Below, piece after piece: positions 23,498-63,778 of a stretch of DNA of 64,000 nucleotides. The translations under genes were made by a program, and so were the position numbers. The stretch spans positions 1 through 64,000 of the IMG/VR virus record IMGVR_UViG_3300020411_000935; one strand, 5' to 3'. The number at the start of each line of letters is the position of its first letter. Positions within the stretch are counted from its first letter, which is position 1. The notes under the pieces are model-generated. The model was given only the letters and a program-made list of their open reading frames with translations, was not told the origin of the DNA and did not search any database. The DNA is from a virus.

Positions 23498-23498
23498 T

Positions 23499-24404
23499 AT
23501 GAAGTGTTTAGTTACAGGCGGTGCGGGATTCATAGGATCTCACATCGTCGAAAGACTACTGGAAGATGGTAGTGAAGTTGTCGTTGTGGACAATGAATCA
23601 GCAGTTAGTAATGATGAATTCCACTGGTATGCATCAGCAAGTAATCATAAGGTAGACATAAGAGATTATGATAAGATAAGACCATTGTTTGATGGTGTAG
23701 ATTGTGTTTTTCATTTAGCAGCATTCAGTAGAATACAAATTGCTATGAAAAATCCAGATGCTTGTATAGATGTCAATTACGTTGGCACTAACAATCTTCT
23801 GAAATGTGCTGTGGAAGCAGGAGTAAAAAGATTTGTAAACTCTTCCACATCATCCTCATATGGTTTAGCAAACACACCTCCTCTAAGAGAGGACATGCCT
23901 ACAGATTGTCTAAACCCATACTCAGCATCTAAAGTTGGAGCAGAAATTTTATGTCAGATGTATTCAAAATTGCACGGACTCTCAACCGTGACCTTGAGGT
24001 ACTTCAATGTTTACGGTCCTCGTCAACCACTAAAGGGAACATATGCTCCCGTGATTGGTTTGTTCGAGGAGCAAAAGAAAGCAAGAAAACCATGCACCAT
24101 AGTTGGTGATGGTGAGCAGAGAAGAGATTTCACACACGTGTCAGATGTAGTAGAAGCAAATATGTGTGCAATGCAAACAAGTTGTGATGGAGTATTTAAT
24201 ATTGGTACTGGTAAAAATCATTCTGTAAATGATATTGCAAAATTAGTCAATAACCCTTATAATACAATACAAATACCATCAAGACCTGGTGAAGCAAGAG
24301 TTACTCTTGCAGACAATACAAAGGCAAAAACATTATTGGGTTGGGAACCTAAGAAAGAACTTCATGAATACTTTGAAAACTCCTCTAAGATATCCTGGCG
24401 GTAA
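23499..24404 (+). CDS. NAD-dependent nucleotide-sugar epimerase/dehydratase
   Basis: Extended short-chain dehydrogenase, 301 aa from ATG 23499. The Rossmann motif GGAGFIGSH is at residues 7-15, and the catalytic Ser region SSTSSSYG and YSASK (Y-x3-K) are present. The substrate is probably a UDP- or GDP-sugar, by similarity to GalE/WbpP-type enzymes. It probably makes an activated sugar for DNA, virion or host-surface glycosylation. The gene extends 41 nt past the Dam start, so the last residues are encoded in a second frame. Confidence 0.9.
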   Translation: MKCLVTGGAGFIGSHIVERLLEDGSEVVVVDNESAVSNDEFHWYASASNHKVDIRDYDKIRPLFDGVDCVFHLAAFSRIQIAMKNPDACIDVNYVGTNNLLKCAVEAGVKRFVNSSTSSSYGLANTPPLREDMPTDCLNPYSASKVGAEILCQMYSKLHGLSTVTLRYFNVYGPRQPLKGTYAPVIGLFEEQKKARKPCTIVGDGEQRRDFTHVSDVVEANMCAMQTSCDGVFNIGTGKNHSVNDIAKLVNNPYNTIQIPSRPGEARVTLADNTKAKTLLGWEPKKELHEYFENSSKISWR

Positions 24405-25176
24405 GTCTAGAGCAGTAGAGAAGATATATTCAAGATTCCCTAATGGTATAAAAGAATATCGTGAACCTTTTTTGGGTGGTGGTAGTGTTGCATGCTACAT
24501 CACACAGAAACATCACAACCTCCCTGTATGGGTAAACGATTTGTACTTCCCTTTATATAATTTTTGGGTACAACTTCGTGATAATAATGATTATGTTTAC
24601 AAAGAACTACAACAACTCAAGAAGAGTCACCCTGATCCCTTATCAGCAAAAGATTTGTTCCTTGATGCAAAGGAGAAGTTGAACGATGAGACCACCGATC
24701 TCCCCGACAAGGCTGTTTATTTCTATATTGTTAATAAGTGTAGCTTCAGTGGGCTTACTGAATCGTCTTCGTTCTCCCCGCAAGCCTCAGATTCCAACTT
24801 TTCTATGCGAGGTATCGAAAAGATGCCCTATTACGGATTACTTATAAAGAAGTGGAAAATAACAAACTTATCTTACCAAGAGTTACTAGATGGTGATGAT
24901 GCATTCTGTTATCTTGATCCACCATACGAGATAGGTTCTAATCTGTATGGTAAAAAGGGTGCGATGCACAAAGGATTTGATCACGATCTGTTTTTTACTA
25001 CATGTGATCTATCAAAACAAGATTGTTTAGTCAGTTATAATACTACACAAGTTATAAAGAGTAGATTTCTAAATTGGACAGCATCAGAATTTGATCTGAC
25101 ATACACTATGAGATCAGTTGGTGATTATATGAACGAACAGAAACAAAGAAAGGAATTGCTATTGTCAAACTACTAG
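24364..25176 (+). CDS. dam: Dam-like N6-adenine DNA methyltransferase (D12 class)
   Basis: 270 aa from ATG 24364 (MNTLKTPLRYPGGKSRAVEK). AdoMet-binding motif FLGGGSVACY follows a family-typical YPGGK N-terminus, and catalytic motif IV is DPPYEIG near residue 190. It probably methylates adenine in a short site such as GATC, for protection or timing. It overlaps the epimerase 3' end. Confidence 0.92.
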   Translation: MNTLKTPLRYPGGKSRAVEKIYSRFPNGIKEYREPFLGGGSVACYITQKHHNLPVWVNDLYFPLYNFWVQLRDNNDYVYKELQQLKKSHPDPLSAKDLFLDAKEKLNDETTDLPDKAVYFYIVNKCSFSGLTESSSFSPQASDSNFSMRGIEKMPYYGLLIKKWKITNLSYQELLDGDDAFCYLDPPYEIGSNLYGKKGAMHKGFDHDLFFTTCDLSKQDCLVSYNTTQVIKSRFLNWTASEFDLTYTMRSVGDYMNEQKQRKELLLSNY

Positions 25177-39353: not shown

Positions 39354-40313
39354 ATGAAAACAATTAGATGGGTTCTAGCACACGAACCAATTGAATTGTT
39401 TCTAAGAGCTGCGAGAAAGTTCAAGGCATCTATGGAAGCAATCGCACCAGGTGCTCTGAACATCGAAATTCTTACACTCTCTGAGTACGCTGAGAAGTAT
39501 AATAACGGTGAGTCAATTACTAAGCACGACTTACTAGATCTAATGGCAGAAGGGAAGATTGAGGTTTCCCAGATGTACACCTCAACATTAGGTCGTAAGC
39601 ACAACAAAGATTTCTGGGCATTAGATATGCCATTCTTGTTCCGTGATCATGATCACGCAAGTCATGTCTTTGAAGGTCCTATTGGTAAGTCACTACTTGA
39701 TGGTTTAGCAGATCCTGCTAAAGGTGAAAAGGGCGGAGTAAAAGGTTTAGCGTTCACATACTCAGGTGGATACAGAAACATCCCTGCAAACGCAGAAATA
39801 CATAAGATCGAAGACTTTGAAGGACTTGAGTTACGTTGTAACAAATCTCCTATCGCTATTGAAACTCTAGAATGCGTTGGTGCTAAGACAGTTCCAATCG
39901 AATTAGAGCAAATCAACGAAGGAGTTCAGTCTGGAATTATCGTTGGTGGAGAGTCAACATACCCTCGCTTCTTTGGATTGAAGCAGAATGAGTGTATGAA
40001 TACAATCAACGACACATCACACAGTCTATTCCTTACATCAATCATTGTAAGTGAAGAGTTCTGGAACTCTCTAGACAAAGATCTTCAAGATAAGATCCAA
40101 GACGCATCATTCGATGCTGCTAGAGCAGAAAGAGTTTGGTCTGTGGAAGACATTGACTTAGTCAAGTCTGCATGTGCCGATGAGAACATCAACGTTGTCA
40201 CTATGAGCGACGAAGAGAAGTCTAGATTCAAAGAAAAGACAGCATACATCTATGACAAGTATGCACACTTGTTCCCAGAGGGACTTGTGGATTCTATAAA
40301 AGAAACAAAATAA
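39354..40313 (+). CDS. TRAP-type (DctP-like) solute-binding protein
   Basis: 319 aa. MYTSTLGRKHNKDFWALDMP and the FLFRDHDHASHVFEG, GYRNIPANAEIHKIEDFEGL and SLFLTSIIVSEEFWNSL blocks match the periplasmic DctP family. No signal peptide is visible: the N-terminus MKTIRWVLAHEPIELFLRAA is not hydrophobic enough. No TRAP membrane subunits lie nearby. It either uses host membrane subunits after an unseen export route or works in the cytoplasm. A late promoter precedes it and a strong terminator follows: a monocistronic late gene. Confidence 0.88.
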   Translation: MKTIRWVLAHEPIELFLRAARKFKASMEAIAPGALNIEILTLSEYAEKYNNGESITKHDLLDLMAEGKIEVSQMYTSTLGRKHNKDFWALDMPFLFRDHDHASHVFEGPIGKSLLDGLADPAKGEKGGVKGLAFTYSGGYRNIPANAEIHKIEDFEGLELRCNKSPIAIETLECVGAKTVPIELEQINEGVQSGIIVGGESTYPRFFGLKQNECMNTINDTSHSLFLTSIIVSEEFWNSLDKDLQDKIQDASFDAARAERVWSVEDIDLVKSACADENINVVTMSDEEKSRFKEKTAYIYDKYAHLFPEGLVDSIKETK

Positions 40314-50870: not shown

Positions 50871-53161
50871 GCAACGGTATAAAAGTTGTAAAGAGAAACG
50901 GTTCTACTGAACCATTGAATCTTGAAAAGATGCACATCATGGCAGAACGTGCATGTGAAAATTTAGCAGGAGTCTCTGCATCACAGGTAGAGATACAATC
51001 TGGTATACAATTCTATGATGGTATCACTACTGCTGAGATACAGAATATTCTAATCAAGTCTGCTAGTGATCTTATAACACTTGACAATCCTAACTATCAG
51101 TTCGTTGCTGCTAGACTTATGCTCTTTGCCCTCCGTAAGGGTCTGTATGGTAAGTTAGAAACAATTCCACACCTTCATGACCATATCAAGGAGTGCGTTG
51201 AGAGAGGTCTGTATGACACCACAGTGCTTGATAAATATTCTGATGAAGAGATCAATGAAATAGATGGTATAATAGATCATGATCGTGACTTCCTGTTTAC
51301 CTATGCAGGATTGAGACAAGTCTTTGACAAGTATCTTGTACAAGACAGAAGCAGTGGTGAAGTGTATGAGACACCACAGCAGATGTACATTATGATTGCT
51401 GCTACACTATTTGCAAACTACCCTAAGGAAACAAGAATCAGTTATGTTCAGAGATACTACAACAGCATCAGCAAACACAAGCTCAACATTCCCACACCTG
51501 TCATGGCGGGAGTTAGAACTCCACTTCGACAATTCGCTAGCTGTGTTCTTGTGGATATTGATGACACCCTCGATAGCATCTTTAGCAGTGATATGGCTAT
51601 CGGCAAGTATGTTGCACAGAGGGCGGGTATTGGCATCAATGCGGGCAAAATCCGTGGCATCAACAGTAAAATCAGAGGCGGAGAAGTTCAACACACAGGC
51701 GTTATACCTTTCCTCAAAAAGTTTGAAAGTACTGTCAGATGCTGCACTCAAAATGGCGTTAGAGGTGGATCAGCGACTGTCCACTTCCCCATCTGGCACC
51801 AAGAAATAGAAGATATAATTGTACTCAAGAATAACAAAGGAACAGAGGACAACCGTGTCAGAAAACTCGACTACTCAATCCAAATCTCAAAACTTTTTTA
51901 CGAAAGGTTTATCAAGAATCAAGACATCTCGCTTTTTTCCCCTCATAATTGTCCTGACTTGTTTGAGAGTTTTGGGACCGATAGGTTTGATGAGTTATAT
52001 TGCGGTTACGAGTTGGATGAATCAATCCCAAGAAAAACCATCGCTGCACAAGAACTCTTCCTCGCAATTCTAAAGGAGAGAGCAGAGACTGGTCGTATAT
52101 ACATCATGAATATCGACCACTGCAATAGTCATTCATCATTTATTGACAAGGTTTCTATGAGTAACCTCTGTCAGGAGATTACCCTACCTACTACACCCCT
52201 GCAACACATCGATAAGGAAGGTGAGATAGCACTGTGTATATTGTCTGCTGTAAACGTAGGAAAGGTACAGTCAGATAAAGAACTGGAGTCACTATGTGAC
52301 CTTGCAGTCAGAGCATTAGATGAGATTATAGATTATCAAGAGTATCCTGTTGCTGCTGCTGAGAAATCTACTAAGGCAAGAAGATCTCTTGGTATAGGTT
52401 ACATTGGACTAGCACATTACTTTGCAAAATTAGGGTTTGCTTATGATTCTCAGGAGGCATGGGACGCAGCACATACACTAACCGAGTCGTTCCAATACTT
52501 CTTACTAAAAGCATCAAATCAACTCGCAAAAGAGAAGGGTGCATGTGAATATTTTGACCGCACAAAATACTCTTTGGGACAACTTCCAATTGATACATAT
52601 AAGAAGGATGTAGATGAGATTACAACAGTAGCATACCAACATGATTGGGATTCTTTACGGAATGACATCAAGACCCACGGTCTTAGGCACTCAACATTGT
52701 CCGCACAGATGCCTTCGGAGAGCAGTTCCGTTGTGTCAAACGCTACCAATGGAATCGAACCACCTAGAGACTACTTGTCCATTAAGAAGTCCAAGAAAGG
52801 ACCTCTTAAGCAAGTTGTGCCACAGTATAGTAAACTAAAAAATAACTATACATTGTTATGGAATATGAAAGACAATCAGGGATACATAAATGTTGTCTCT
52901 GTGATGCAAAAATTCTTTGATCAAGCAATATCTGGTAATTGGTCATACAACCCAGAGAATTATCCAAATAATGAAGTGCCAGTTTCTGTTATGGCACAAG
53001 ATTTGTTGACCACATATAAGTATGGATGGAAAACTTCCTACTATCAGAACACTCATGACATGAAGAGTGATGAAATAGAGGAACCGGTAGCATCTACTAA
53101 AGATCTAATAGCAGAAATAGAAAACCTATCGGAAGAATCCTGTGATTCCTGTGCAATTTAG
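50867..53161 (+). CDS. nrdA: Ribonucleotide reductase class Ia large subunit NrdA
   Basis: 764 aa from ATG 50867 (ATGA overlap with gp61). N-terminal ATP-cone KVVKRNGSTEPLNLEKMHIM, active-site Cys in FASCVLVDIDDT, catalytic SNLCQEITLPT (N-x-C-x-E), and the C-terminal redox pair CDSCAI. Reduces NDPs to dNDPs for phage DNA synthesis. Overlap with an earlier nrdB start is possible. Confidence 0.97.
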   Translation: MSNGIKVVKRNGSTEPLNLEKMHIMAERACENLAGVSASQVEIQSGIQFYDGITTAEIQNILIKSASDLITLDNPNYQFVAARLMLFALRKGLYGKLETIPHLHDHIKECVERGLYDTTVLDKYSDEEINEIDGIIDHDRDFLFTYAGLRQVFDKYLVQDRSSGEVYETPQQMYIMIAATLFANYPKETRISYVQRYYNSISKHKLNIPTPVMAGVRTPLRQFASCVLVDIDDTLDSIFSSDMAIGKYVAQRAGIGINAGKIRGINSKIRGGEVQHTGVIPFLKKFESTVRCCTQNGVRGGSATVHFPIWHQEIEDIIVLKNNKGTEDNRVRKLDYSIQISKLFYERFIKNQDISLFSPHNCPDLFESFGTDRFDELYCGYELDESIPRKTIAAQELFLAILKERAETGRIYIMNIDHCNSHSSFIDKVSMSNLCQEITLPTTPLQHIDKEGEIALCILSAVNVGKVQSDKELESLCDLAVRALDEIIDYQEYPVAAAEKSTKARRSLGIGYIGLAHYFAKLGFAYDSQEAWDAAHTLTESFQYFLLKASNQLAKEKGACEYFDRTKYSLGQLPIDTYKKDVDEITTVAYQHDWDSLRNDIKTHGLRHSTLSAQMPSESSSVVSNATNGIEPPRDYLSIKKSKKGPLKQVVPQYSKLKNNYTLLWNMKDNQGYINVVSVMQKFFDQAISGNWSYNPENYPNNEVPVSVMAQDLLTTYKYGWKTSYYQNTHDMKSDEIEEPVASTKDLIAEIENLSEESCDSCAI

Positions 53162-53189
53162 AGTGACTGAGTCTACACCAGTCAATGGT

Positions 53190-54323
53190 ATGACTGTCTT
53201 CAATAAAGGACATGTCGATACAAAAGAACAACCTATGTTCTTTGGTGCACCCCTTGGTGTGCAGAGATATGATTCATATAAGTATCCTGTGTTTGAGAAA
53301 CTAACAAACCAGATGCTTGGATACTTTTGGAGACCAGAAGAGGTGTCTCTACAAAAGGATCGTGGTGACTACCAGTCTCTACGTCCAGAGCAGAAGCATA
53401 TCTTTACTTCTAATTTGAAATATCAAATACTCCTTGACTCTGTACAAGGTCGTGGTCCTGGTATGGCATTCTCACCCTACTGTGCACTGCCTGAGTTGGA
53501 AGGTGCTATGAATGTATGGCAGTTTATGGAGATGATTCATAGTAGATCATACACTTATATTATCAAGAATGTTTATCCAGATCCAGCAGAGGTTTTTGAT
53601 ACCATACTGGATGATGATAAGATATTGGCACGTGCTAAGTCAGTGACTGCTGCCTATGATGACTTCATCAACATGGCACATCAATATGATCAGAGTAACT
53701 GGTGGAGACCTGAGTGGAAGAATGCTAGTTACAATGCGTCTTATGAAGAAAGAGAACTAAAACGTAAACTTTATCTTGCTGTATCTAATGTCAATATACT
53801 CGAAGGTATTCGTTTTTATGTTAGTTTTGCTTGCAGTTTTGCATTTGGAGAACTCAAACTCATGGAAGGTTCGGCAAAAATCATCTCACTTATTGCAAGA
53901 GACGAGAACCAACATACAGTCCTCACTCAACAAATGATCAAGGCATGGCAGAAGGGAGATGACCCTGTCATGAGTGAGATAATGAAAGAAGAAGAGCAAA
54001 CTGTCATTGACATGTATAGAATGGCAGTGGAAGAAGAGAAAGAGTGGGCACAATACTTATTCAAAGATGGTAGCATGATAGGACTCAACGATAAGTTACT
54101 TGTTAAATATGTTGAGTGGATCTGCAATAAAAGAATGAGAGCGATTGGACTAGATCCTATATATGATGCACCCATAAAGAACAACCCACTACCTTGGACA
54201 GAACATTGGATTAGTTCTAAAGGTTTACAGGTTGCACCACAGGAGACAGAGGTAGAAAGTTATGTCGTCGGAGGAATCAAACAAGACGTCAAGAAGGACA
54301 CGTTCTCAGGATTCAAACTCTAG
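53190..54323 (+). CDS. nrdB: Ribonucleotide reductase class Ia small subunit NrdB
   Basis: 377 aa from ATG 53190 (MTVFNKGHVDTKEQPMFFG), which aligns with the T4 NrdB N-terminus; a GTG at 53142 overlapping nrdA would add 16 residues. Di-iron and radical-site motifs: WQFMEMIHSRSYTY (E, H, Tyr), ILEGIRFYVSFAC and ARDENQHTVL (E-x-x-H). No intein or intron seen. Confidence 0.96.
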   Translation: MTVFNKGHVDTKEQPMFFGAPLGVQRYDSYKYPVFEKLTNQMLGYFWRPEEVSLQKDRGDYQSLRPEQKHIFTSNLKYQILLDSVQGRGPGMAFSPYCALPELEGAMNVWQFMEMIHSRSYTYIIKNVYPDPAEVFDTILDDDKILARAKSVTAAYDDFINMAHQYDQSNWWRPEWKNASYNASYEERELKRKLYLAVSNVNILEGIRFYVSFACSFAFGELKLMEGSAKIISLIARDENQHTVLTQQMIKAWQKGDDPVMSEIMKEEEQTVIDMYRMAVEEEKEWAQYLFKDGSMIGLNDKLLVKYVEWICNKRMRAIGLDPIYDAPIKNNPLPWTEHWISSKGLQVAPQETEVESYVVGGIKQDVKKDTFSGFKL

Positions 54324-54552
54324 AGGAAGATTCGATCCACCTTTGAATAAAGATGGATCTCCTTGTTTGAAAGGTAGAATTATAAACCTAATACAAGTAG
54401 TAGTGGTAACACAGTTACTGATAGTTGCTGCTACTATCCATGGATGTCTTATGCCAGGTAGAGAGTGTAACTCAGAAACTAAACAACATATTGCTAACAT
54501 GATGACTGTTATAACTACCTCTACATTTGCTTTATATGCTGCTGAGAAGTGA
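54262..54552 (+). CDS. Small membrane protein downstream of NrdB
   Basis: 96 aa, ATG 54262 overlapping nrdB by 62 nt; a later non-ATG start near 54343 is possible. One membrane segment (IINLIQVVVVTQLLIVAATI) and a second hydrophobic end. The first 25 residues are Ser/Arg-rich. Unknown. Overlaps the first SGNH-like gene by 4 nt. Confidence 0.5.
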   Translation: MSSEESNKTSRRTRSQDSNSRGRFDPPLNKDGSPCLKGRIINLIQVVVVTQLLIVAATIHGCLMPGRECNSETKQHIANMMTVITTSTFALYAAEK

Positions 54553-55214
54553 AGTTTTATTTTGATGGTTGCTCTTTCACTGCTGGTGGAGGATTCAAAA
54601 AGTTTGGACACGAAAATTATAAAAATTTACTATGGACACACCATGTCTGTGACCATTTCAATGCAGAAGAACATAACTTTGCCATAGGTGGTGCTGCTAA
54701 TGACACCATACTCAGAAATTTTTTCGTCAAAAATTATGATGAGTTGGAAACCTATGACTGTTTCTTTATGCAGACTACCATTACTGCTAGGAGTGAGTGG
54801 TTTGATGATATAAAAAATATTTGGAGGAGATATAAGTTCAAGGCAAAGGTTTATAAAGATCAACTCAGGAAGGAAGACCCTGTGCTAGAGGAATGGATTG
54901 ACTACTATTTGAAGAGAATATACAGCGATAAAGCAGGACGAGTGAAGGAAGAGGTGACATATAGGAGCATAGATTCACACCTAAAAGCATTGAACAAACC
55001 TGTGTTCTGGTCTACAGTTATAAAAAATAAAGAATCTCGCATGGATTACCACTTGAACTTCAAGGATCCTAATCAAACTACTAATCTTCCTAAGACAAGG
55101 TACGACAGTTTCCCTGATGGACACCCAAGTGTTGAAGGACATAGGCAGATCGCCAAAGATGTTATAAAAGTAATAAATAGTAACACTATATTCAAAGGAA
55201 TAACATGTCCGTAG
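54549..55214 (+). CDS. SGNH-hydrolase-like protein 1
   Basis: 221 aa, GTG start. MKFYFDGCSFTAGGG replaces the GDSL block with DGCSF (Ser9 candidate nucleophile), GGAANDTIL is the G-x-N-D block, and PDGHPSVEGHRQIA gives the C-terminal D-x-x-H with catalytic His. SGNH enzymes are esterases or deacylases acting on glycans, lipids or peptidoglycan. First of four paralogues here. Confidence 0.78.
   Translation: MKFYFDGCSFTAGGGFKKFGHENYKNLLWTHHVCDHFNAEEHNFAIGGAANDTILRNFFVKNYDELETYDCFFMQTTITARSEWFDDIKNIWRRYKFKAKVYKDQLRKEDPVLEEWIDYYLKRIYSDKAGRVKEEVTYRSIDSHLKALNKPVFWSTVIKNKESRMDYHLNFKDPNQTTNLPKTRYDSFPDGHPSVEGHRQIAKDVIKVINSNTIFKGITCP
55172..55180 (+). promoter_or_regulatory. Late promoter box before fibre-type proteins
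   Basis: AATAAATAG in the end of the first SGNH gene, continuing TAACAC like other late boxes, 25 nt before ATG 55205. Confidence 0.6.
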
Positions 55215-55528
55215 ATTTAAATTCATCAGCTAAAACATATAACCTAGCAGTTAGAGCAAAAGGTAGACTATCTGCGGATGGTATTATAGAGTTCCCAAAA
55301 GCATGGGCGGGTAAAGTAAAGACTAATACTATCTCTATTATACTTACTCCTTACAAATCATATCAAGAATTATATGTTGAGTCTATATCATATGGAAGTA
55401 AAGCAATAGTAAAGAATGCAGCAGGATCTCATATTCAAGGATGGTATTTTCTAATCGCTAACCTACAGGACGGTGTAGAAATAGACACCAGCACAGGTAA
55501 CTACAGTAATACTCAAGCGTTTGAGTAA
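55205..55528 (+). CDS. Fibre-type beta-domain protein 1
   Basis: 107 aa. VRAKGRLSADGIIEFPKAWA, then SIILTPYKSYQELYVESI and IQGWYFLIANL follow the pattern of small beta domains at the C-terminus of phage tail fibres and other virion proteins. It has a near-copy immediately downstream. Late promoter upstream suggests a structural role; which appendage is unknown. Stop overlaps the next frame (TAATG). Confidence 0.7.
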   Translation: MSVDLNSSAKTYNLAVRAKGRLSADGIIEFPKAWAGKVKTNTISIILTPYKSYQELYVESISYGSKAIVKNAAGSHIQGWYFLIANLQDGVEIDTSTGNYSNTQAFE

Positions 55529-55632
55529 TGAATGGTAGAGGTGATGGCCGCAAACTAAAGATTTGGGGTGAGATATACCATAAGTACAGAACAGATTCAG
55601 GCAAAATTTACATCCAAGAGGAGGGACAACCA

Positions 55633-55911
55633 ATGGCAAAGAATCGAGGGGATCATGCACCAACATTTGGTGCAGTCAGAGTAAAGGGTGACATACCAGA
55701 CAATGGGGTTATAAATTTCCCTGCTGATTGGAAGGGTAAGATAGACATTGACAGTATTGTCATAATGGTTACACCACATGGTGCATTCCAAAGATTATAT
55801 GTTGACTCTATACAAGGAGAAGTCTCAGCAGTTGTAGCGAATGCTATTAGCGGACCTATCAAGGGTTCATATATGATAATCTGTAACCTTAAAGGTTATC
55901 CTAAAAATTGA
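55633..55911 (+). CDS. Fibre-type beta-domain protein 2
   Basis: 92 aa from ATG 55633, chosen because GAGGAGGG lies 8 nt upstream and the product then aligns with its paralogue (FGAVRVKGDIPDNGVINFPA, IVIMVTPHGAFQRLYVDSI, KGSYMIICNL). An in-frame ATG at 55528, overlapping the previous stop, would add 35 residues. Either start keeps the same domain. Confidence 0.68.
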   Translation: MAKNRGDHAPTFGAVRVKGDIPDNGVINFPADWKGKIDIDSIVIMVTPHGAFQRLYVDSIQGEVSAVVANAISGPIKGSYMIICNLKGYPKN

Positions 55912-56750
55912 TACCTTTATTATTAAATTTTGGAACTGCATACTCTGCGACCAGTCCATTGTGGCGAACTCTACAAGATGATACTAAGTATCTGCACACT
56001 GGACATCGTAAGAAGACTCATTGGTTATGGTTACTAAGGAATCAAGATACCAATGTGGAGAGGAAGTTTGTTCTCACACCAGAACCTTCTGCTCAAGCAC
56101 CATCAAGACAGCATATAAAATTTACTAAAGAGGAGGAGGACTATTTCTTTTCTCTTCCTACATCTATAGAGAAATATATTGAATATTATAAAAGGCATTG
56201 GGACTATCTTGATGGTGAGTTCAAGTCGGTGGGTGACTTCTGTAATAAGATGGCAGTGGCAGATGAGGAATATCTTTGTTTTCTACGTGACAAGTTGTCT
56301 GAACACTTTGATGTTAAGATAACTCTGATATTCAGAGACCCTGTTCGTAAGATATGGTCTGAAGCACGTACAGAATACAGTAGAATATACAACAAGAAGG
56401 GTGGTATAAGACGATCAGCTTTATATGGTGAGGTGTATGAGAAGTATGCTAGAGTTTTTGGTGAGGAGAGAGTGTTACCAATGGTTATGGAAAGGATATG
56501 GGAAGACCCTAGTGAACTGTCAGACTTCTTAGGACATCCTATTCCAAAAATGCATAGGAATGCATACTATCCAGAGAGAGGTACTAACATAAAAGAGTTC
56601 CCTGAGTTCTGGGATCAATGGAGAAATGAAAAGAATCCTATAGACTATGATAGGTTGAGAAAGGAGTTTGATTTATGCTATGTGGATTATAAAAGAGTCT
56701 TTGGAGATGTACCTGTAGAGTGGGGTAAAAAGGACATAGATATAGTATGA
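55908..56750 (+). CDS. Sulfotransferase-like protein
   Basis: 280 aa, TTG start overlapping the previous stop. The N-terminus LNFGTAYSATSPLWRTLQ resembles the PAPS 5'-phosphosulfate loop, and ITLIFRDPVRKIWSEARTEY is the 3'-phosphate motif (R-D-P-x-x-R-x-x-S). It would transfer sulfate from PAPS to a carbohydrate, lipid or protein. It sits within the SGNH cluster, where a glycan-modifying role is natural. Confidence 0.82.
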   Translation: MIPLLLNFGTAYSATSPLWRTLQDDTKYLHTGHRKKTHWLWLLRNQDTNVERKFVLTPEPSAQAPSRQHIKFTKEEEDYFFSLPTSIEKYIEYYKRHWDYLDGEFKSVGDFCNKMAVADEEYLCFLRDKLSEHFDVKITLIFRDPVRKIWSEARTEYSRIYNKKGGIRRSALYGEVYEKYARVFGEERVLPMVMERIWEDPSELSDFLGHPIPKMHRNAYYPERGTNIKEFPEFWDQWRNEKNPIDYDRLRKEFDLCYVDYKRVFGDVPVEWGKKDIDIV

Positions 56751-57433
56751 AATTTTATTTTGATGGATGCTCCTTCTCACATGGGTATGCCATGAGTGAG
56801 TATGGACATGATTTCCTAGCAAATCGTTGGACAAAATTAGTTTCTGATCACTACGGTGCAGAAGAATTCAACTTGTCATCAGGTGGTGCTGCTAATGACA
56901 CCATACTGAGACATTTTTTTATGGGAGAGAAGTTTAGAGAGCACAATGTGATGAAGAATCCTATACGATTCGATCTCAACGACTTTGATTTATTTTTTAT
57001 ACAGTCTACGTCACCTAGAAGAGGTGAGTATTGGAATAGAACTACTATGAAGTGGGAAAGATATAAGTTTAGAGGTGTCAAGAAAGAAGCAGAGAAGAGA
57101 AAGAAAAATCCTGAGTTGCAGAGGTGGATACAGTACTGGTTGACTGACATATATGACCCAAAACAGGGTGCAGTTTATGAGACTGTGATGATGAAAGCAA
57201 TTACATCACATCTTAAACTACTGAAGAAACCATACATAACTCTTACGTTTATGAATCCAGAGAGTGCTGTTATGGACTACGACATATATCTAAACGCTGC
57301 AAGTAAACACTATGTGACTGAAGAGATAACTACAAAGTATGATAAATTACCTGATGGACACCCATCACCACTGGGTAATAGACAAATTGCTGATGATATT
57401 ATAAAGTTGATAGATGAAAAAGTTTTACTTTGA
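56747..57433 (+). CDS. SGNH-hydrolase-like protein 2
   Basis: 228 aa, overlapping the sulfotransferase by 4 nt. MKFYFDGCSFSHGYA, GGAANDTILRHFF and PDGHPSPLGNRQIADDI repeat the three SGNH blocks. More divergent in the middle (residues 60-150, long basic insert VKKEAEKRKKNPELQRW). Overlaps the third paralogue by 20 nt. Confidence 0.78.
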   Translation: MKFYFDGCSFSHGYAMSEYGHDFLANRWTKLVSDHYGAEEFNLSSGGAANDTILRHFFMGEKFREHNVMKNPIRFDLNDFDLFFIQSTSPRRGEYWNRTTMKWERYKFRGVKKEAEKRKKNPELQRWIQYWLTDIYDPKQGAVYETVMMKAITSHLKLLKKPYITLTFMNPESAVMDYDIYLNAASKHYVTEEITTKYDKLPDGHPSPLGNRQIADDIIKLIDEKVLL

Positions 57434-57998
57434 TGGTGACTCATGGATGAATGGTGGAGGACTAGAGTTATGTGGTCTTCCTAGGAAATCACGTTGGTCT
57501 ACCTTAGTATGTGAACATTTTGGAGCAGAAGAAACTAATTTAGCAACTGGTGGTGCACCTATTGACACTGCTATGCGACATCTATTTACTGGTAAGTATA
57601 AAAAGAAAGAGATTCCTCTCCATGAGTTTGATATGTTCTTCATACAACTGTCTTACCCTCGTAGAAGAGAATACTTTTGTGATATTGAAAAGAGATGGAG
57701 GAGATATCATCCAGATAAAGATAAGTGGGCAGAGGACTATCTCAAATACAAATACAGTGAGGTACAGGGGAGAGTAATAGAACAGATTGCAGTCAAATCT
57801 ATAAGAGCATACTGTAAAGAACTTGGTAAACCATTGTTCCTGTGCACTCAATGGAAAAATGCAAATAAAGATTTAGATTATGACCTATTTCTCCATACAT
57901 ATGCTAGACTACCTGATGGAGGGCACCCTTCAGTCAAAGGTCATCGTCACATTGCTGATGATGTAATAAAATTTATGACAAATGAACTACATTTTTGA
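57414..57998 (+). CDS. SGNH-hydrolase-like protein 3
   Basis: 194 aa. FYFDGDSWMNGGG has the canonical GDS form of block I. Block III is altered to GGAPIDTAMRH, replacing Asn with Ile-Asp, so the oxyanion-hole Asn may be missing. PDGGHPSVKGHRHIADDVI is intact. Overlaps both neighbours. Confidence 0.75.
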   Translation: MKKFYFDGDSWMNGGGLELCGLPRKSRWSTLVCEHFGAEETNLATGGAPIDTAMRHLFTGKYKKKEIPLHEFDMFFIQLSYPRRREYFCDIEKRWRRYHPDKDKWAEDYLKYKYSEVQGRVIEQIAVKSIRAYCKELGKPLFLCTQWKNANKDLDYDLFLHTYARLPDGGHPSVKGHRHIADDVIKFMTNELHF

Positions 57999-58680
57999 TG
58001 TTGATGGCACACTGACTCCTGCTAGGAGACAAATGGACTTGTCTTTCATGGCATGGTTCATAATATTTGAATGCAAGCACCCTGTGTATCTGGTGACTGG
58101 TAGTGATAGACAGAAGACTATAGATCAGGTGGGTCTTGATGTGTATAACAGAGCACAGAGAGTATATAATTGTTCTGGTTCAGATGTGTGGGAGGGAGAT
58201 CGTAATGTTTATAGAGACGATTGGAAACTACCTCATGATGCCAATGCATGGTTGATGTTAGAACTCAAGCAAAGTAATTTTACTATCAGAACTGGTACAC
58301 ATATAGAAAGGAGACCTGGTTGTGTCAACTTTAGTATCTTAGGTAGAGGTGCTAACTTTGAGGAGAGAGAAGTATATAAGCAATGGGATAAAGATGAGAA
58401 TGAGAGACATCAAATTGCTAGGAGATTCAATAGAGAGTTTCCTGACCTCTATGCTACTGTTGGTGGTGAGACAGGACTAGACATAGCACCACAAGGTAGA
58501 GATAAGAGTCAGATACTTAGAGACTTTGATGGAGATATAAAATTCTTTGGTGATAAGATGGAGAAAGGAGGTAATGACTTCCTTCTTGCACAGACAATAA
58601 GAGAAAAAAAATTAGGTGCTACCTATTATGTGTTTGATTATAAGCATACTTGGGAGATATTACAGTACGAAAATAAATGA
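57982..58680 (+). CDS. Phosphomannomutase-like HAD-family enzyme
   Basis: 232 aa. HAD motif I FDVDGTLTPAR at residues 4-14 and VYLVTGSDRQKT. The cap and core IERRPGCVNFSILGRGANFE, GGETGLDIAPQGRDKSQIL and FFGDKMEKGGND strongly resemble eukaryotic-type alpha-phosphomannomutase (N-V-S-x-I-G-R, G-G-x-D-x-x-P-x-G-x-D-K, F-G-D-K-x-x-x-G-G-N-D). It would interconvert mannose-6-phosphate and mannose-1-phosphate, or dephosphorylate a sugar phosphate. It fits a GDP-mannose/fucose supply for glycan work together with the epimerase. Confidence 0.85.
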   Translation: MNYIFDVDGTLTPARRQMDLSFMAWFIIFECKHPVYLVTGSDRQKTIDQVGLDVYNRAQRVYNCSGSDVWEGDRNVYRDDWKLPHDANAWLMLELKQSNFTIRTGTHIERRPGCVNFSILGRGANFEEREVYKQWDKDENERHQIARRFNREFPDLYATVGGETGLDIAPQGRDKSQILRDFDGDIKFFGDKMEKGGNDFLLAQTIREKKLGATYYVFDYKHTWEILQYENK

Positions 58681-59276
58681 AATTTTATTTTGATGGTTGC
58701 TCCTTTACATTTGGTCAAGGAGTGCCAGCAGATAAAAGATGGAGTTACCTTGTAAGTAAACACTTTGGTGCTGAAGAATTTAATATAGCAAGTAGTGGTG
58801 CCACCAATGATACTATCATGAGGCACTTTTTTACAGGACAAACTATGAATGAGTATGTTCCTGATATGACATTTGATCTAAAAGATTTTGATTTATTCTT
58901 TATTCAATTTACTTTTCATATAAGAAGAGAGTACTATGATAGCAGTGCCAGTAGATGGAGAAGGTATAGGTACAATGATAATGGTGCACGATGGTCACAA
59001 AGACACATTCAATTCTTCCAACACTACAGTACAGAGATACACACCAAGTATCAGGAGAAAGTTTTTGAGGAAATAAATCATACTGCTATAACCTCACACT
59101 TGAAGTGTCTGGATAAACCATACTTCTTAGGACACTTGGGACAATCCTTTGGTATGACATATGATTATGATTTCCGTACACCAGTTGACCTACTGCCATG
59201 TCACCACCCATCAATAGAGGGTAATAAAGTGATAGCAAAAAAGGTTATAGATATAGTGGAGAAAAAATTATTATGA
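58677..59276 (+). CDS. SGNH-hydrolase-like protein 4
   Basis: 199 aa, ATGA overlap with the PMM-like gene. MKFYFDGCSFTFGQG, SSGATNDTIMRHFF and CHHPSIEGNKVIAKKV. Block V lacks the D-G before H-P found in the others (LPCHHPS instead of PDGHPS), a likely loss of the catalytic Asp. Overlaps the endonuclease gene by 4 nt. Confidence 0.75.
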   Translation: MKFYFDGCSFTFGQGVPADKRWSYLVSKHFGAEEFNIASSGATNDTIMRHFFTGQTMNEYVPDMTFDLKDFDLFFIQFTFHIRREYYDSSASRWRRYRYNDNGARWSQRHIQFFQHYSTEIHTKYQEKVFEEINHTAITSHLKCLDKPYFLGHLGQSFGMTYDYDFRTPVDLLPCHHPSIEGNKVIAKKVIDIVEKKLL

Positions 59277-59602
59277 AACCGCAATCAGCGAAGGCAAAGG
59301 GTAGGAAACTACAGCAGTGGGTGAGAGATAAACTTATTGAACATAGGGAAGTACATCCTGAGGACATCGAGTCTAGGTCTATGGGTGCTGGTGGTGAAGA
59401 TCTTATTATGGCACGAGATGCTAGACAAAAGTTCCCTTTTAGTATAGAATGTAAGAACCAAGAGAAGTTGAACGTTTGGGATGCTTATCAACAAGCAATT
59501 GATAACTCTGGTGACTACGAACCTATTCTTATAATGAAGAAAAATGGTAAAAAACCACTGGTTGTCATGGACGCGGAAAGCTTTATCAAGTCCAAAGGCT
59601 GA
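59273..59602 (+). CDS. Small PD-(D/E)XK endonuclease (Holliday-junction-resolvase-like)
   Basis: 109 aa. RSMGAGGEDLIMARDARQKF, then SIECKNQEKLNVWDAYQQA gives the D...E-x-K core (E-D-L-I, then E-C-K) of archaeal Hjc/VRR-NUC-type nucleases. It probably resolves or nicks branched phage DNA. Confidence 0.8.
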   Translation: MKPQSAKAKGRKLQQWVRDKLIEHREVHPEDIESRSMGAGGEDLIMARDARQKFPFSIECKNQEKLNVWDAYQQAIDNSGDYEPILIMKKNGKKPLVVMDAESFIKSKG

Positions 59603-60674: not shown

Positions 60675-61461
60675 CTTCATACACTCTCCAAGTGTGAATA
60701 AGATAGAGGTAACTATACCTCCTATCAGAGTTCTCAACGTGCCAAATATAAAAGTATTCAATGCACCCTCTGTACCTAACGTAACAGTCCCAGTTACAGT
60801 GTACATTGGGAAACCAATAGTAGATTTACCAGGTTGTGTAGAAGCACACCCAGAAGACGAAGGAAAAAGTCCCTCACTTGTCACGGATGACAGTGATGGG
60901 ACTGTTGTTTTATGTGACGGTCAGTATCCATCCTTTGATGCGATGGACTATGTACCAGAAGATATAATAATAACGACAGAAGCACCACCACCCGAAGTGC
61001 AACCACCACCAGATCCACCAGGTGCACCAGAGGTTCCTGAGACTACTGATCTAGGTACAGAGGAACAACCATGTCCTGCACCAGGTCAACCAAGAGTGGG
61101 TGATCTATCTCAAAGTGGAGATGAGAAGGTTATAGGTCATGAACTCCAAGGCACGACCTGTGTAGTATTATATGAACCTACTACTGCTATTGAAAAATAT
61201 TTACCAACTACAAACGTGGTTACGACTACAGCAGTCATAGCAACTGTTGCTACTGCGTCTGCCCTATTTGCAAAACCCCTAGCGGATTTGATTCTGAGGG
61301 CTGTGAAACCTCTAATAAAGAAGGCAACTGATACTGTGAAGAAGAAACTGGGACGTCATCGGACTTTGTCTCCTCAGGAGGTGAGATCAAATAAGTATCG
61401 GGAGAAGAGGGGTCTACCTCCTTTGAAGGTTCCGAAAAAGAATAAGAAGTTGAAGGGATAG
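60661..61461 (+). CDS. Proline-rich membrane protein, probable virion component
   Basis: 266 aa. N-terminal tandem hydrophobic/Pro pattern (VPNIKVFNAPSVPNVTVPVT), an extremely Pro-rich centre (PPPEVQPPPDPPGAPEVPET), a hydrophobic stretch (VVTTTAVIATVATASALFA) and a basic C-terminus (RGLPPLKVPKKNKKLKG). No catalytic motif. Its last 212 nt overlap a minus-strand gene. Confidence 0.65.
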   Translation: MEELDFIHSPSVNKIEVTIPPIRVLNVPNIKVFNAPSVPNVTVPVTVYIGKPIVDLPGCVEAHPEDEGKSPSLVTDDSDGTVVLCDGQYPSFDAMDYVPEDIIITTEAPPPEVQPPPDPPGAPEVPETTDLGTEEQPCPAPGQPRVGDLSQSGDEKVIGHELQGTTCVVLYEPTTAIEKYLPTTNVVTTTAVIATVATASALFAKPLADLILRAVKPLIKKATDTVKKKLGRHRTLSPQEVRSNKYREKRGLPPLKVPKKNKKLKG

Positions 61462-62104
61462 AGTGGGTATGATTTGGTAATGTATTTGGTGGGTTCACTA
61501 ATACAACATCAGCACATACAGAGTAGTAAGGAGACTTTGGATGGAACATAATTCCCTCCTTCATTAGCTGACCACAATTTTTTAATCTAGCTATCTCAAA
61601 ATCTAATCTCTTGTTGGCATTTGTCTGCTCGATGAATGCTATCTGCTGTGTTGCTGCCTCTTTACATAACTGAGTCAATTTCCTATCAAGTGGCCAACTT
61701 ATAGTACCACTGATACCTATTGATATATTCTGGTTGTTTTTCTGACCTGTTCTTGTTGGTTTATAAAATAAAATTTCACCGGGATGATCGGGTACACCGT
61801 CATCATTGGCGTCTAGCATGTTGTACACTGGATCCATCCAGTAATCTTCGTAAGGATGCTGTTCGCTGAGACTCCCAGTGAAGAACGGAGTAAGGTTCAT
61901 GGTAGCACCTTGACACTGTATACCATTACTATAAGTGTTGGTAATATAAGGTCCTTGTAAAACCTGTATTGCCTGATTGGTTACTGAGCCTGAAGAGTTG
62001 GCGACTGGATTAGCGGTAGCAGAAACTCCCCCCACGTCTGTGTTTGCTAAGACTGGGGTAGTTATGGTAAAAAGACTAAGGACGGATAGTACTGATGTAC
62101 TTAT
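61250..62104 (-). CDS. Secreted protein, possible ATA start, minus strand
   Basis: About 284 aa. If initiated at the ATA at 62104 (which overlaps the upstream TAA as ATAA) it begins ISTSVLSVLSLFTITTPVLA, a clean signal peptide ending in A, with mature start NTDVGG. The only ATG in frame is at 62272, 56 codons upstream and inside the neighbouring gene. The mature part has paired Cys (GIQCQGATM, LCKEAATQ, LKNCGQL and YSVCADV) and ends Ser/Pro-rich. Its C-terminal region overlaps antisense to the + strand Pro-rich gene. Function unknown. Confidence 0.6.
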   Translation of the reverse strand: MSTSVLSVLSLFTITTPVLANTDVGGVSATANPVANSSGSVTNQAIQVLQGPYITNTYSNGIQCQGATMNLTPFFTGSLSEQHPYEDYWMDPVYNMLDANDDGVPDHPGEILFYKPTRTGQKNNQNISIGISGTISWPLDRKLTQLCKEAATQQIAFIEQTNANKRLDFEIARLKNCGQLMKEGIMFHPKSPYYSVCADVVLVNPPNTLPNHTHSIPSTSYSFSEPSKEVDPSSPDTYLISPPEETKSDDVPVSSSQYQLPSLLEVSQPSESNPLGVLQIGQTQ

Positions 62105-62544
62105 TGACTGAAGATTGAGGTTGTATCTGTGACGCTTTGTATTGTTGTTGTTCTTTGTATTATTGTCTGTGTCTGTAAGCCTGGGCCATTGTAGTGCTCC
62201 GTGAATTGGAACGCTTGTCCTACATTGTTCTGTGTCCAGTTTGGTTTTTGTTCTAAGTCTAAACCAGTCCATGATGAAGTCACTCCATTCAAAGTATTAG
62301 ATTGAGCACTCCCCACATCAGGAGATATGCTCGTGCCATCGTGTTGTACGTTTGTCCCCGTTACCGAGTATGTCCAGCCTGTCGAGTAATCCATAGAATT
62401 AATCGTCTCTGTCACGGTAGACGTCGTCTCCGTGTGGCTGGTCATCGAGCCCTGTGTGAAGTTAGGGACCACAGGGACTGCAATCGCAGTCGGTGCAGTC
62501 GCAAGGACAAGTGCACTGACAGTTATCGCACGATACAGTTTCAT
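62101..62544 (-). CDS. Secreted Thr/Ser-rich protein, minus strand
   Basis: 147 aa with signal peptide MKLYRAITVSALVLATAPTA followed by IA. The mature region is Thr/Ser/Gln/Asn-rich beta-like sequence (TETTSTVTETINSMDYSTGW). Second gene of the minus-strand unit. Possibly an appendage or adhesion-like protein exported by the host; no family recognised. Confidence 0.7.
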   Translation of the reverse strand: MKLYRAITVSALVLATAPTAIAVPVVPNFTQGSMTSHTETTSTVTETINSMDYSTGWTYSVTGTNVQHDGTSISPDVGSAQSNTLNGVTSSWTGLDLEQKPNWTQNNVGQAFQFTEHYNGPGLQTQTIIQRTTTIQSVTDTTSIFSQ

Positions 62545-62560
62545 TTGTTACCATAACTCC

Positions 62561-63052
62561 TTATTTTATAGTAAGTTCAGTGACATGCTGTCCTGTAGCT
62601 GAAGTACCTGCACCACCAGCAGTTATTGTCATAACCCCTGCACTGGTTATAGTTCCAGCGAGTGTGTCTTTTGTACCAGCAGCAGTTGAAGTTTGGTTAC
62701 TGAAGTTTCCTACAGCACCTACTGTTGGTGCTGATGTTGAAACAGCGTCTCCTTGGGTGTATGACTGGGTAAAGCTGAAAGCTGCACCAGGTACATCTTG
62801 AGTTGCTGCTATAGTACCAGGAGCATAAACACCTGAAGTTATAGTACCAACAGAAACAGTACCAGCTGTTGTACCATCTGTTGTATCGACACCGTTTCCA
62901 GTGATAGAGAATGAGGATCCAATCCTCTCAACCTGTGTTGCTGCTGCGTTCACTTGTAACTGAACACTTGATGACAGTCTGTGAGTAATGTCTGCACGAG
63001 CAGTCATCGGTGCAGCTAACGCTAACATAATAAAAGGAATAAGTTTTTTCAT
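62561..63052 (-). CDS. Secreted Thr/Gly-rich protein, minus strand
   Basis: 163 aa from ATG 63052. An upstream in-frame start at 63166 would overlap talC and skip the promoter. Signal peptide MKKLIPFIMLALAAPMTARA, then low-complexity Thr/Gly/Ala strands (TTDGTTAGTVSVGTITSG) resembling repetitive surface or adhesion proteins. First gene of the minus-strand unit. Confidence 0.72.
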   Translation of the reverse strand: MKKLIPFIMLALAAPMTARADITHRLSSSVQLQVNAAATQVERIGSSFSITGNGVDTTDGTTAGTVSVGTITSGVYAPGTIAATQDVPGAAFSFTQSYTQGDAVSTSAPTVGAVGNFSNQTSTAAGTKDTLAGTITSAGVMTITAGGAGTSATGQHVTELTIK

Positions 63053-63074
63053 TCTTATACGTAGCATTCTAGCC

Positions 63075-63083
63075 GTATTTATG
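63075..63083 (-). promoter_or_regulatory. Late promoter box, minus strand
   Basis: CATAAATAC on the minus strand, 23 nt before ATG 63052. It is the only late box facing left in the window and sits in the 66-bp divergent gap with talC. Confidence 0.6.
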
Positions 63084-63118
63084 ATAATATATATCCAACG
63101 ATAAAAATACCTAGAAAC

Positions 63119-63778
63119 ATGAGAATTTTTCTTGACACTGCTGACACAGAAGTGATCAACAAGCACTATGTCACTGGTCTTATAGACGGTGTCACAACAA
63201 ACCCAACACTTATACGTAAGAGTGGTAGAGATCCCATCAAAGTCTACGAAGAGTTAGCAGAGTTAGGACTCACTGACATCAGTATGGAGGTTGGTGGTAA
63301 TGCCATGGAGATGGTAGAAGAAGGCAAGAGACTTGCTACTTTGTTTGGAAATGTTGCAACCATCAAGGTTCCATGTACACCAGAGGGTCTATGGGTATGC
63401 AGAGAGTTGAAAAGAAATCTTATAAATGTAAATGTAACTTTGATATTCTCAGCAGCACAAGCAATCCTTGCAGCAAAGGCAGGAGCAAAGTATGTTTCTC
63501 CTTTCGTTGGTAGATTGAATGACAACTCTGTAAATGGATTAGACTTGATTGAAGAGATCAATGGTATATTCACAGTGCAGGGTGTGCATGAGACAGAGAT
63601 ACTATCTGCATCTATTAGAGATGTGTCTGGTGTGTCTGGTTCATTCGCTAGAGGTGCTGACATAGTTACAATGCCACCATCAGTATTTGAAAAGATGTAC
63701 AACCACATCTTGACTGATAAAGGGTTAGAACTATTCAATGCAGACCTAGAGAGCATAGCAAATGCGAATCATTCATAA
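63119..63778 (+). CDS. talC: Transaldolase TalC (fructose-6-phosphate aldolase type)
   Basis: 219 aa. MRIFLDTADTEVINKHYVTG, GVTTNPTLIRKSG, the Schiff-base Lys in NVATIKVPCTPEGL and KAGAKYVSPFVGRLND match short MipB/TalC transaldolases. It redirects the host pentose phosphate pathway towards NADPH and nucleotide precursors; a hallmark cyanophage auxiliary gene. Overlaps the next gene by 17 nt. Confidence 0.95.
   Translation: MRIFLDTADTEVINKHYVTGLIDGVTTNPTLIRKSGRDPIKVYEELAELGLTDISMEVGGNAMEMVEEGKRLATLFGNVATIKVPCTPEGLWVCRELKRNLINVNVTLIFSAAQAILAAKAGAKYVSPFVGRLNDNSVNGLDLIEEINGIFTVQGVHETEILSASIRDVSGVSGSFARGADIVTMPPSVFEKMYNHILTDKGLELFNADLESIANANHS

Follow-up and report, generated by a model that had tools for sequence, protein, structure and literature searches.

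A sulfotransferase and SGNH gene row in the variable nrdB-rusA slot of a T4-like cyanophage: a putative glycan-tailoring cassette

We analysed a stretch of viral DNA of 64,000 nucleotides (nt), hereafter the window, which comprises positions 1 to 64,000 of virus record IMGVR_UViG_3300020411_000935 (82,872 bases). Our subject is a row of nine genes between nrdB and a RusA-like resolvase gene (rusA), which combines four SGNH-hydrolase-like genes with a sulfotransferase, a eukaryotic-type phosphomannomutase (PMM) and two beta-domain genes. Our results show that the gap between nrdB and rusA is a general variable cargo slot of cyanophages, with SGNH and PMM genes as its recurring cargo. We regard the row as a phage surface-glycan island, a known kind of element, whose sulfotransferase and SGNH families have no cultured representative that we could find. 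We see about an even chance that it forms a cytoplasmic glycan-tailoring cassette, carried as gain-and-loss cargo and directed at the host surface.

The gene row and its phage

In its major head protein, the window phage shares 87% identity with Marine virus AG-345-D19, and 73-75% with the next-listed cyanophages. Furthermore, the 82,872-base record runs at its 3' end into a photosystem reaction-centre gene of the psbA/psbD type (PF00124), of which it holds the first part. On these two grounds, we consider the phage to be a T4-like cyanophage. A PF00124 gene was present in six of the 12 phage records tested, and both kinds of island described below are represented among these six. A near-identical row occurs in two longer records (locus L005 in record G001, 118,972 bases; locus L006 in record G002, 132,946 bases). 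The row and its two bordering genes, all on the plus strand, are as follows.

53142-54323, plus strand: nrdB, which borders the cargo slot on its 5' side (cyanophage nrdB matched by blastn; slot border in other contigs)
54262-54552, plus strand: 96-residue open reading frame (ORF), matching phrog_3189 over residues 38-96
54549-55214, plus strand: SGNH copy 1, with a GTG start codon; retains Ser9 and the block V His; same-site orthologues in loci L028 and L029
55205-55528, plus strand: beta-domain gene 1 (beta1); phrog_17490, E 2.8e-14; homologues near gp5 in S-CAM9, S-SM2 and G002
55528-55911, plus strand: beta-domain gene 2 (beta2); 40% identity to beta1
55908-56750, plus strand: sulfotransferase, predicted to be of the carbohydrate type by its modelled fold and a profile match to 3rnl
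56747-57433, plus strand: SGNH copy 2, with a predicted structure
57414-57998, plus strand: SGNH copy 3; N50 replaced by Ile, Ser and His kept; orthologue in L007
57982-58680, plus strand: eukaryotic-type PMM of the HAD type; Pfam PMM, E 6.1e-22; PDB 5ue7, E 1.1e-25
58677-59276, plus strand: SGNH copy 4; lacks an Asp ahead of the block V His; same-site orthologues in L015, L018, L019 and L007
59273-59602, plus strand: RusA-like resolvase, 3' border of the cargo slot; phrog_244, E 4.5e-22; slot border in other contigs

From the 96-residue ORF through rusA, each adjacent pair of genes overlaps by 1-20 nt. In the 5' part of the row, the overlaps are 4 nt (96-residue ORF and SGNH copy 1), 10 nt (SGNH copy 1 and beta1), 1 nt (beta1 and beta2) and 4 nt (beta2 and sulfotransferase). 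In the 3' part, they are 4 nt (sulfotransferase and SGNH copy 2), 20 nt (SGNH copies 2 and 3), 17 nt (SGNH copy 3 and PMM), 4 nt (PMM and SGNH copy 4) and 4 nt (SGNH copy 4 and rusA). An earlier reading of the sequence alone had noted overlaps of 4-20 nt from the sulfotransferase onward; these are indeed present, and the overlapping row extends more widely. The 5' part of the 96-residue ORF overlaps nrdB, and hence its true start may be later. This ORF also follows nrdB in five other loci (L016, L018, L028, L029 and L030).

Similarity to the DNA of isolate phages covers at most 22% of positions 53142-59602, and lies beneath nrdB and rusA. None of eight proteins matched the anti-phage defence models of PADLOC (E 0.01), and an NCBIfam search with 10 proteins gave no useful name except a below-cut-off match of the PMM to HAD-IIB.

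Predicted functions of the row proteins

The sulfotransferase sequence alone gave a weak Pfam match (E 0.026), and a profile of 27 rows matched the solved sulfotransferase 3rnl with an E of 1.3e-7. Its predicted structure (predicted local distance difference test, pLDDT, 89.4) is nearest to 3rnl, a bacterial sulfotransferase for which no substrate is stated (Z 16.5; root-mean-square deviation, rmsd, 3.2; 213 aligned). It is followed by heparan-sulfate 3-OST and NDST enzymes (Z 14.5-16.1), including NDST1 (16.1) and 3-OST-3 (6xkg; Z 16.0, rmsd 3.4, 214 aligned). Sulfotransferase domains of polyketide synthases (13.3 and 12.9), tyrosylprotein sulfotransferases (11.1-11.6) and SULT enzymes (at most 10.3) rank lower. 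Because 3rnl and the heparan-sulfate enzymes outrank the other sulfotransferase classes, a polysaccharide is the likeliest acceptor as judged by the modelled fold, although a fold shows no function.

The protein shares with the heparan-sulfate 3-O- and N-sulfotransferases both the fold and a conserved R-D-P...S motif, but it is only 11-16% identical to them in the fold alignments, and its clade has a Lys at position 36. Among 92 distinct relatives, R143 is conserved in 88, P145 in 91 and S151 in 87; R143 and S151 are both present in the window protein. We take R143 and S151 to be the 3'-phosphate motif of sulfotransferases that depend on 3'-phosphoadenosine 5'-phosphosulfate (PAPS). The N-terminal loop is without the usual Lys of the PAPS loop. 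Sulfotransferases of this kind need PAPS, which is made in the cytoplasm.

The four SGNH-like proteins share the motifs FYFDG[CD]S, [GS]GAxxDTxxR and HPSxxG, and copies 2, 3 and 4 are 44%, 46% and 40% identical to copy 1. Their Pfam matches were under the cut-off or absent. The flavodoxin-like SGNH fold is confirmed in the predicted structure of copy 2 (mean pLDDT 92.8), which has the CE2 carbohydrate esterase 2w9x as its best structural match (Z 14.8, rmsd 3.2, 176 aligned); copies 1, 3 and 4 would have the same fold by homology. The four proteins are described here as predicted hydrolases or acyltransferases. In these respects the sequence-only reading has held up well: the four paralogues lie at its coordinates with their shared motifs, the fold agrees, and the sulfotransferase, the PMM-like HAD protein and the duplicated beta gene are found between them.

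The copy 2 model is almost as similar to TesA-type enzymes (Z 13.2-14.5), such as the TesA structure 4jgg (Z 14.5, rmsd 2.5, 149 aligned). These values, which tie with CE2, would also suit a role in lipid or acyl-CoA metabolism, with the SGNH proteins as TesA-like thioesterases or lysophospholipases. We regard such a role as very improbable, since the four copies adjoin a glycan-type sulfotransferase and a PMM, and since no lipid gene was recognised in the row.

Other matches point to the virion. SGNH copy 3 matches the tail-fibre family phrog_5240 (E 1.9e-6), and the best PDB profile match is the tail-associated lysin 6v8i (E 0.0022). Possibly, the SGNH and beta proteins are structural parts that deacylate the outer glycan of the host on contact, as the SGNH domains in tail fibres do. 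The tail spike gp63.1 of phage G7C, for instance, is reportedly an SGNH esterase that deacetylates O-antigen. Yet, the window SGNH genes stand alone, without a fused spike or fibre domain, and the company of a PAPS-type sulfotransferase and a PMM implies the cytoplasm, which makes virion-borne esterases an unlikely explanation.

Among 150 distinct SGNH relatives from phage contigs, Ser9 and Arg92 are each conserved in 148, His205 in 140 (the others being three gapped rows, six with Leu and one with Arg) and N50 in 131. Ser9, Gly47, Arg92, Glu94 and His205 are kept in all four window copies. The family thus shares with the SGNH/GDSL superfamily, including CE2 esterases and TesA, the fold, the block I Ser, the block II Gly and the block V His. 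By sequence alignment, it differs at the position where block III usually has its Asn: the residues there are Q-x-[TS], as part of a motif Q-x-[TS]-x3-R-x-E.

The sequence-only reading had suggested that an Asn is lost in copy 3 and an Asp in copy 4, and that pseudoenzymes are likely. The replacement of N50 by Ile in the GGAxND block of copy 3 is real, and is apparently common to the copy 3 orthologues, but this Asn is one that we take to belong to block II. The Asp of copy 4 turned out to be a non-event. Only 31 of the 150 relatives have an Asp at the second position ahead of the block V His, and hence its absence from copy 4 says little. Pseudoenzymes by catalytic loss were rejected for copy 4 on this ground, and are more generally unsupported because Ser and His are kept, because each copy has its own same-site orthologues, and because the ratio of nonsynonymous to synonymous substitution rates (dN/dS; pairwise NG86) between the copies and their orthologues is 0.21-0.37. 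Only N50 of copy 3 remains of this suggestion. Judged by these ratios, the SGNH copies are under purifying selection, weaker than that on NrdB or on the PMM (0.11-0.18); the sulfotransferase gave 0.12-0.13.

A tree of 72 SGNH rows included 35 from nrdB-rusA contigs. Of these, 34 group in a single clade (100/99), and the remaining one, a second SGNH gene of L054, is located beyond rusA. Each window copy clusters with same-site copies from other phages, and a recent tandem duplication in this phage was therefore rejected.

The PMM matches PF03332 over residues 4-202 and the solved eukaryotic-type PMM 5ue7, and keeps the motifs FDVDGTLTPAR (HAD DxDGT) and FFGDKxxKGGND. It resembles eukaryotic-type phosphomannomutases in motifs and length, and differs from them in being phage-borne. 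It belongs to phrog_29277, a PHROG of unknown function. Relatives in isolates occur in P-TIM68 and S-SSM7/S-SSM6a. Elsewhere in the window, a gene at 23466-24404 encodes a protein of the sugar-nucleotide epimerase/dehydratase family (PF16363, E 4.8e-65), a possible partner of the PMM; next to it lies an ORF for a D12 DNA methyltransferase (24289-25176).

Both beta proteins match phrog_17490 and phrog_28536, as do all seven members of their alignment (A6), which includes genes near gp5. Longer relatives lie a few genes 3' of gp5 and 5' of a fibre gene, as one gene in S-CAM9 and as an adjacent pair with a 1-nt overlap in S-SM2. In G002, a beta pair adjoins a gp5-like gene. The beta domain had no matches in a profile search of the PDB. 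From their sequences, beta1 and beta2 appear to be shortened duplicates of a structural-region pair near the baseplate gene gp5, and their products would be virion parts.

A variable cargo slot, and islands elsewhere

To describe the slot in other phages, we used the best 80 of at least 598 RusA-sampled loci, of which 16 without nrdB were left out, so that 64 contigs were counted. The interval count also admitted genes whose start lay no more than 800 bases past that of rusA. The gap between nrdB and rusA ranged from -3 to 4955 bases. SGNH genes were present in 12 of the 64 contigs, PMM genes in 13 and both in seven; the 12 SGNH-positive contigs represent 10 clusters, one of which holds the window phage. 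Likewise, 57 SGNH-sampled loci (L005-L023 and L028-L065) fell into 23 clusters, and by reading, SGNH genes lie beside nrdB or rusA in 15 of these. The recurring neighbourhood expected by the sequence-only reading thus exists in other phages, in the form of SGNH and/or PMM genes in this slot. The sulfotransferase and beta genes were found within the slot in only two of the 64 contigs, both from this phage; a third sulfotransferase in the interval count (L164) is located after rusA. The proposal that the row is one unit therefore stands for this phage, but not for the slot in general, where the cargo is SGNH and PMM.

A comparison with two loci illustrates how the cargo changes. In L016 and L018, the PMM gene directly follows the 96-residue ORF. 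L018 aligns with the window in two stretches, one of 5,572 bases reaching position 54571 (95.7%) and one of 6,056 bases beginning at position 57976 (93.7%), with no match between; L016 shows the same interrupted match (95.0% and 91.9%). Since the flanks match and the middle is absent, about 3.4 kb (approximately 54572-57975, SGNH copy 1 through SGNH copy 3) has been gained or lost as a block. Just beyond the slot, between rusA and talC, three ORFs at 61250-63166 lie on the minus strand, opposite to the surrounding genes; by eye, they have hydrophobic, signal-like stretches near their N-termini. Similar ORFs occur in L054.

SGNH and sulfotransferase genes also occur together at other sites. We found 35 sulfotransferase loci without reference to SGNH, of which 28 were new (L090-L117), representing 16 clusters (95% over 1 kb). 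SGNH genes were present in 25 of these 28 loci, carbamoyltransferase genes in 26 and the baseplate gene gp25 in 25; by cluster, SGNH was present in 15 of 16 and carbamoyltransferase in 14 of 16. Pfam confirms the carbamoyltransferase and gp25 in one locus, L097. Of the other seven loci, L066 and L072 are the window row and L067-L071 have no SGNH gene in the available sequence, which brings SGNH to 27 of the 35 loci overall. Some islands are large: over 11-16 kb, L090-L092 each contain eight or nine ORFs positive for sulfotransferase, adjoined by carbamoyltransferase and gp25 in L090 and L091, and L101 has nine SGNH-positive ORFs.

We also sampled 38 loci by gp25 (17 close and 21 distant relatives) and kept those with at least 4.3 kb upstream, which removed five close and 10 distant ones. 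Close gp25 relatives (71-99% identical; three clusters) had a sulfotransferase in 12 of 12 loci and an SGNH gene in nine of 12. In contrast, neither gene was found with the 11 distant relatives (up to 58% identical). This contrast indicates that the trait marks one marine phage group in this sample.

The window phage itself has at least six SGNH and at least five sulfotransferase genes at three places of G001. The names fibre, neck, gp6, isomerase and, in G002, gp5 were given by eye.

G001, 10-13 kb, island 1: beside a carbamoyltransferase gene, a 255-residue possible glycosyltransferase, gp25 (Pfam) and gp6
G001, 43-45 kb, island 2: two sulfotransferase genes, preceded by a fibre-like gene and by a gene with weak resemblance to methyltransferases
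G001, 107-112 kb, island 3: the window row

A further SGNH gene of G002 lies near a cytidylyltransferase-like gene and fibre-like genes, and an SGNH gene lies near a cytidylyltransferase in L232. In L026, a sulfotransferase gene lies near a cytidylyltransferase gene, the counterpart of that in G002 (Pfam CTP_transf_3, E 2.9e-26); this locus is from MH319720.1, an unannotated, single-cell-derived marine virus that also has a PF00124 photosystem gene. Glycos_transf_2 was found at one place of G000 (74963-75334, outside the window) and at one of G002.

Several side observations concern these islands. The 255-residue gene by gp25 (L097:10434-11201) also occurs in phage groups without sulfotransferase or SGNH genes; it has no Pfam match and very weak glycosyltransferase matches only. 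In L060 and L063, SGNH genes lie near two adjacent ORFs that by eye resemble the halves of a carbamoyltransferase, and near genes with radical-SAM-like cysteine text (also by eye). The window further contains a gene for a TRAP-type solute-binding protein at 39354-40313 (DctP; Pfam, E 1.2e-40), which is odd in a phage; its product has no obvious signal peptide by eye.

An alternative explanation of the row might be that the slot gathers single genes with separate uses and no joint function. The wide range of slot lengths, the lack of SGNH and PMM in most sampled slots and the location of the PMM gene away from nrdB in P-TIM68 and S-SSM7 are in line with this. However, SGNH and PMM occur together in the interval of seven contigs, SGNH accompanies the sulfotransferase in 25 of the 28 new loci, mostly at an unrelated place, and every junction of the row overlaps. 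Hence, we think it improbable that the genes are unlinked cargo.

Deposited sequences contain little of these families. Five SGNH and sulfotransferase queries against 50,697 deposited phage records returned nothing, or only AG-345-D19, which is single-cell-derived. SGNH copies 2 and 3 as queries had no match in isolate phages, and for two queries of the window sulfotransferase family AG-345-D19 was the sole deposited phage record matched. We also scanned a single genome per species, across 84,980 species, with sequence patterns that reach fairly close relatives only; this gave 36 stretches for SGNH (alignment A1) and 349 for the sulfotransferase (alignment A5), with no cellular relatives among them. 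Because the queries came back near-empty in deposited phages, work with cultured phages has likely missed these families.

Sulfotransferases of unclear function are known from OM43-phage genomes and Synechococcus phage S-SRM01 (PMC10580990), and marine phage sulfotransferases have been reported as Sulfotransfer_3 or family-level matches (PMC12285232; PMC10580990). These are phage-borne as in our case, but the parts of the two papers available to us mention no SGNH partner. T4-like cyanophages and pelagimyophages have host recognition clusters and lipopolysaccharide (LPS) gene clusters (PMC7029224; PMC3037559). Like the window row, these are variable islands with surface-glycan genes. They differ in carrying glycosyltransferases, whereas the row has a sulfotransferase and SGNH genes and lies at the nrdB-rusA site; the terms sulfotransferase and carbamoyl do not occur in the accessible text of PMC7029224. 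Host recognition clusters lie in the structural region, where the window row does not, but the other islands of the same phage adjoin fibre-like or baseplate genes. In the literature on phage sulfotransferases, SGNH proteins and surface glycans, mostly open-access, we found no description of the gene combination of the window.

Host surface or virion as the target

The explanation that we put first, at about even odds, is a cytoplasmic cassette that modifies the host surface. In a crude hydropathy scan, the SGNH, sulfotransferase and beta proteins lacked any clear stretch resembling a signal peptide or membrane segment. Together with the PAPS need of the sulfotransferase, this suggests that the enzymes act in the cytoplasm of the infected cell. 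The row is probably translated as one overlapping unit. The sulfotransferase would use host PAPS to sulfate a sugar, either on a surface polysaccharide or on its carrier-bound precursor, and the PMM would supply hexose 1-phosphate. The four SGNH proteins would remove or shift O-acyl groups, perhaps at differing positions of the polymer. The target would be the host's own surface polysaccharide (the LPS O-chain), remodelled during infection, and the benefit may lie in reduced binding by competing phages, or by the phage's own progeny on cell debris. We infer the substrates, the single shared polymer, the target and the benefit.

That the genes trim and decorate a glycan, as the sequence-only reading proposed, gains support from the presence of carbohydrate esterases and heparan-sulfate sulfotransferases among the closest folds, and from the company of SGNH and sulfotransferase genes; as for the target, that reading allowed for both the host surface and a virion appendage. 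Possibly, the enzymes modify glycans that sit on the tail fibres or baseplate of the phage itself, with the beta proteins as the virion parts that receive or anchor them. Two of the three islands of the same phage adjoin structural genes (gp25 by Pfam; fibre- and neck-like genes by eye), the closest sulfotransferase relatives in the same phage come after a fibre-like gene, and the beta genes copy a domain encoded near gp5. The beta genes and the two islands on the structural side make virion decoration a serious rival, albeit a clearly less probable one. Against it, the window cassette lies in the replication and nucleotide region, and islands in the structural region also house glycosyltransferases proposed to be directed at the host, as in pelagimyophages (PMC7029224). 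We rank the host surface first, as about twice as likely, because for the pelagimyophage glycosyltransferases a change of the host O-chain that avoids coinfection has been proposed in the same source.

Several results weigh against a host-directed cassette. Since the sulfotransferase occurs in the slot only in this phage, the full set is no conserved unit. In addition, the nearest relatives of the window sulfotransferase (L067-L071; five of the seven loci) lack SGNH in the available sequence. The beta genes suggest the virion, not the host, as the target, and the tie between CE2 and TesA-type Z values means that the SGNH fold does not specify a carbohydrate. The dN/dS of the SGNH copies is two- to fourfold above that of NrdB (0.09). 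No PF00483 nucleotidyltransferase or APS (adenosine 5'-phosphosulfate) kinase was found in three fragments of the window phage, which cannot show their genome-wide absence. The ORFs next to the L026 cytidylyltransferase, taken by eye for a sugar isomerase and a HAD protein, have no Pfam match. Finally, at position 36 of the sulfotransferase, beside the conserved Lys35, 78 of the 92 relatives have Glu and 12 have Lys, including the window protein. The Lys36 clade comprises the sulfotransferases of L005, L006 and L067-L071, and includes the same-phage pair after the fibre-like gene. If Glu36 corresponds to the catalytic base of 3-OST enzymes, this clade may be altered. As read from the alignment, Lys36 is the row's clearest candidate for a changed active site, and it lies outside the SGNH genes.

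On a wider scale, we tentatively suggest, as a rather unlikely possibility, that the islands of uncultured marine cyanophages with heparan-sulfate-type sulfotransferases, SGNH proteins and carbamoyltransferases, mixed and swapped among phages, jointly set down sulfate, acyl and carbamoyl groups in a pattern specific to the strain, in effect a glycan sulfation code. If so, the code would be written on the polysaccharide of host or virion, and phages would compete by rewriting receptors or by cloaking themselves. In these islands the gene partners are definite and recur, and the modelled fold suggests polysaccharides as substrates. If the target is the virion, the row would represent an unusual decoration of phage tails. 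If it is the LPS of the host, phage competition in the ocean would be tied to sulfated sugars on the cell surface.

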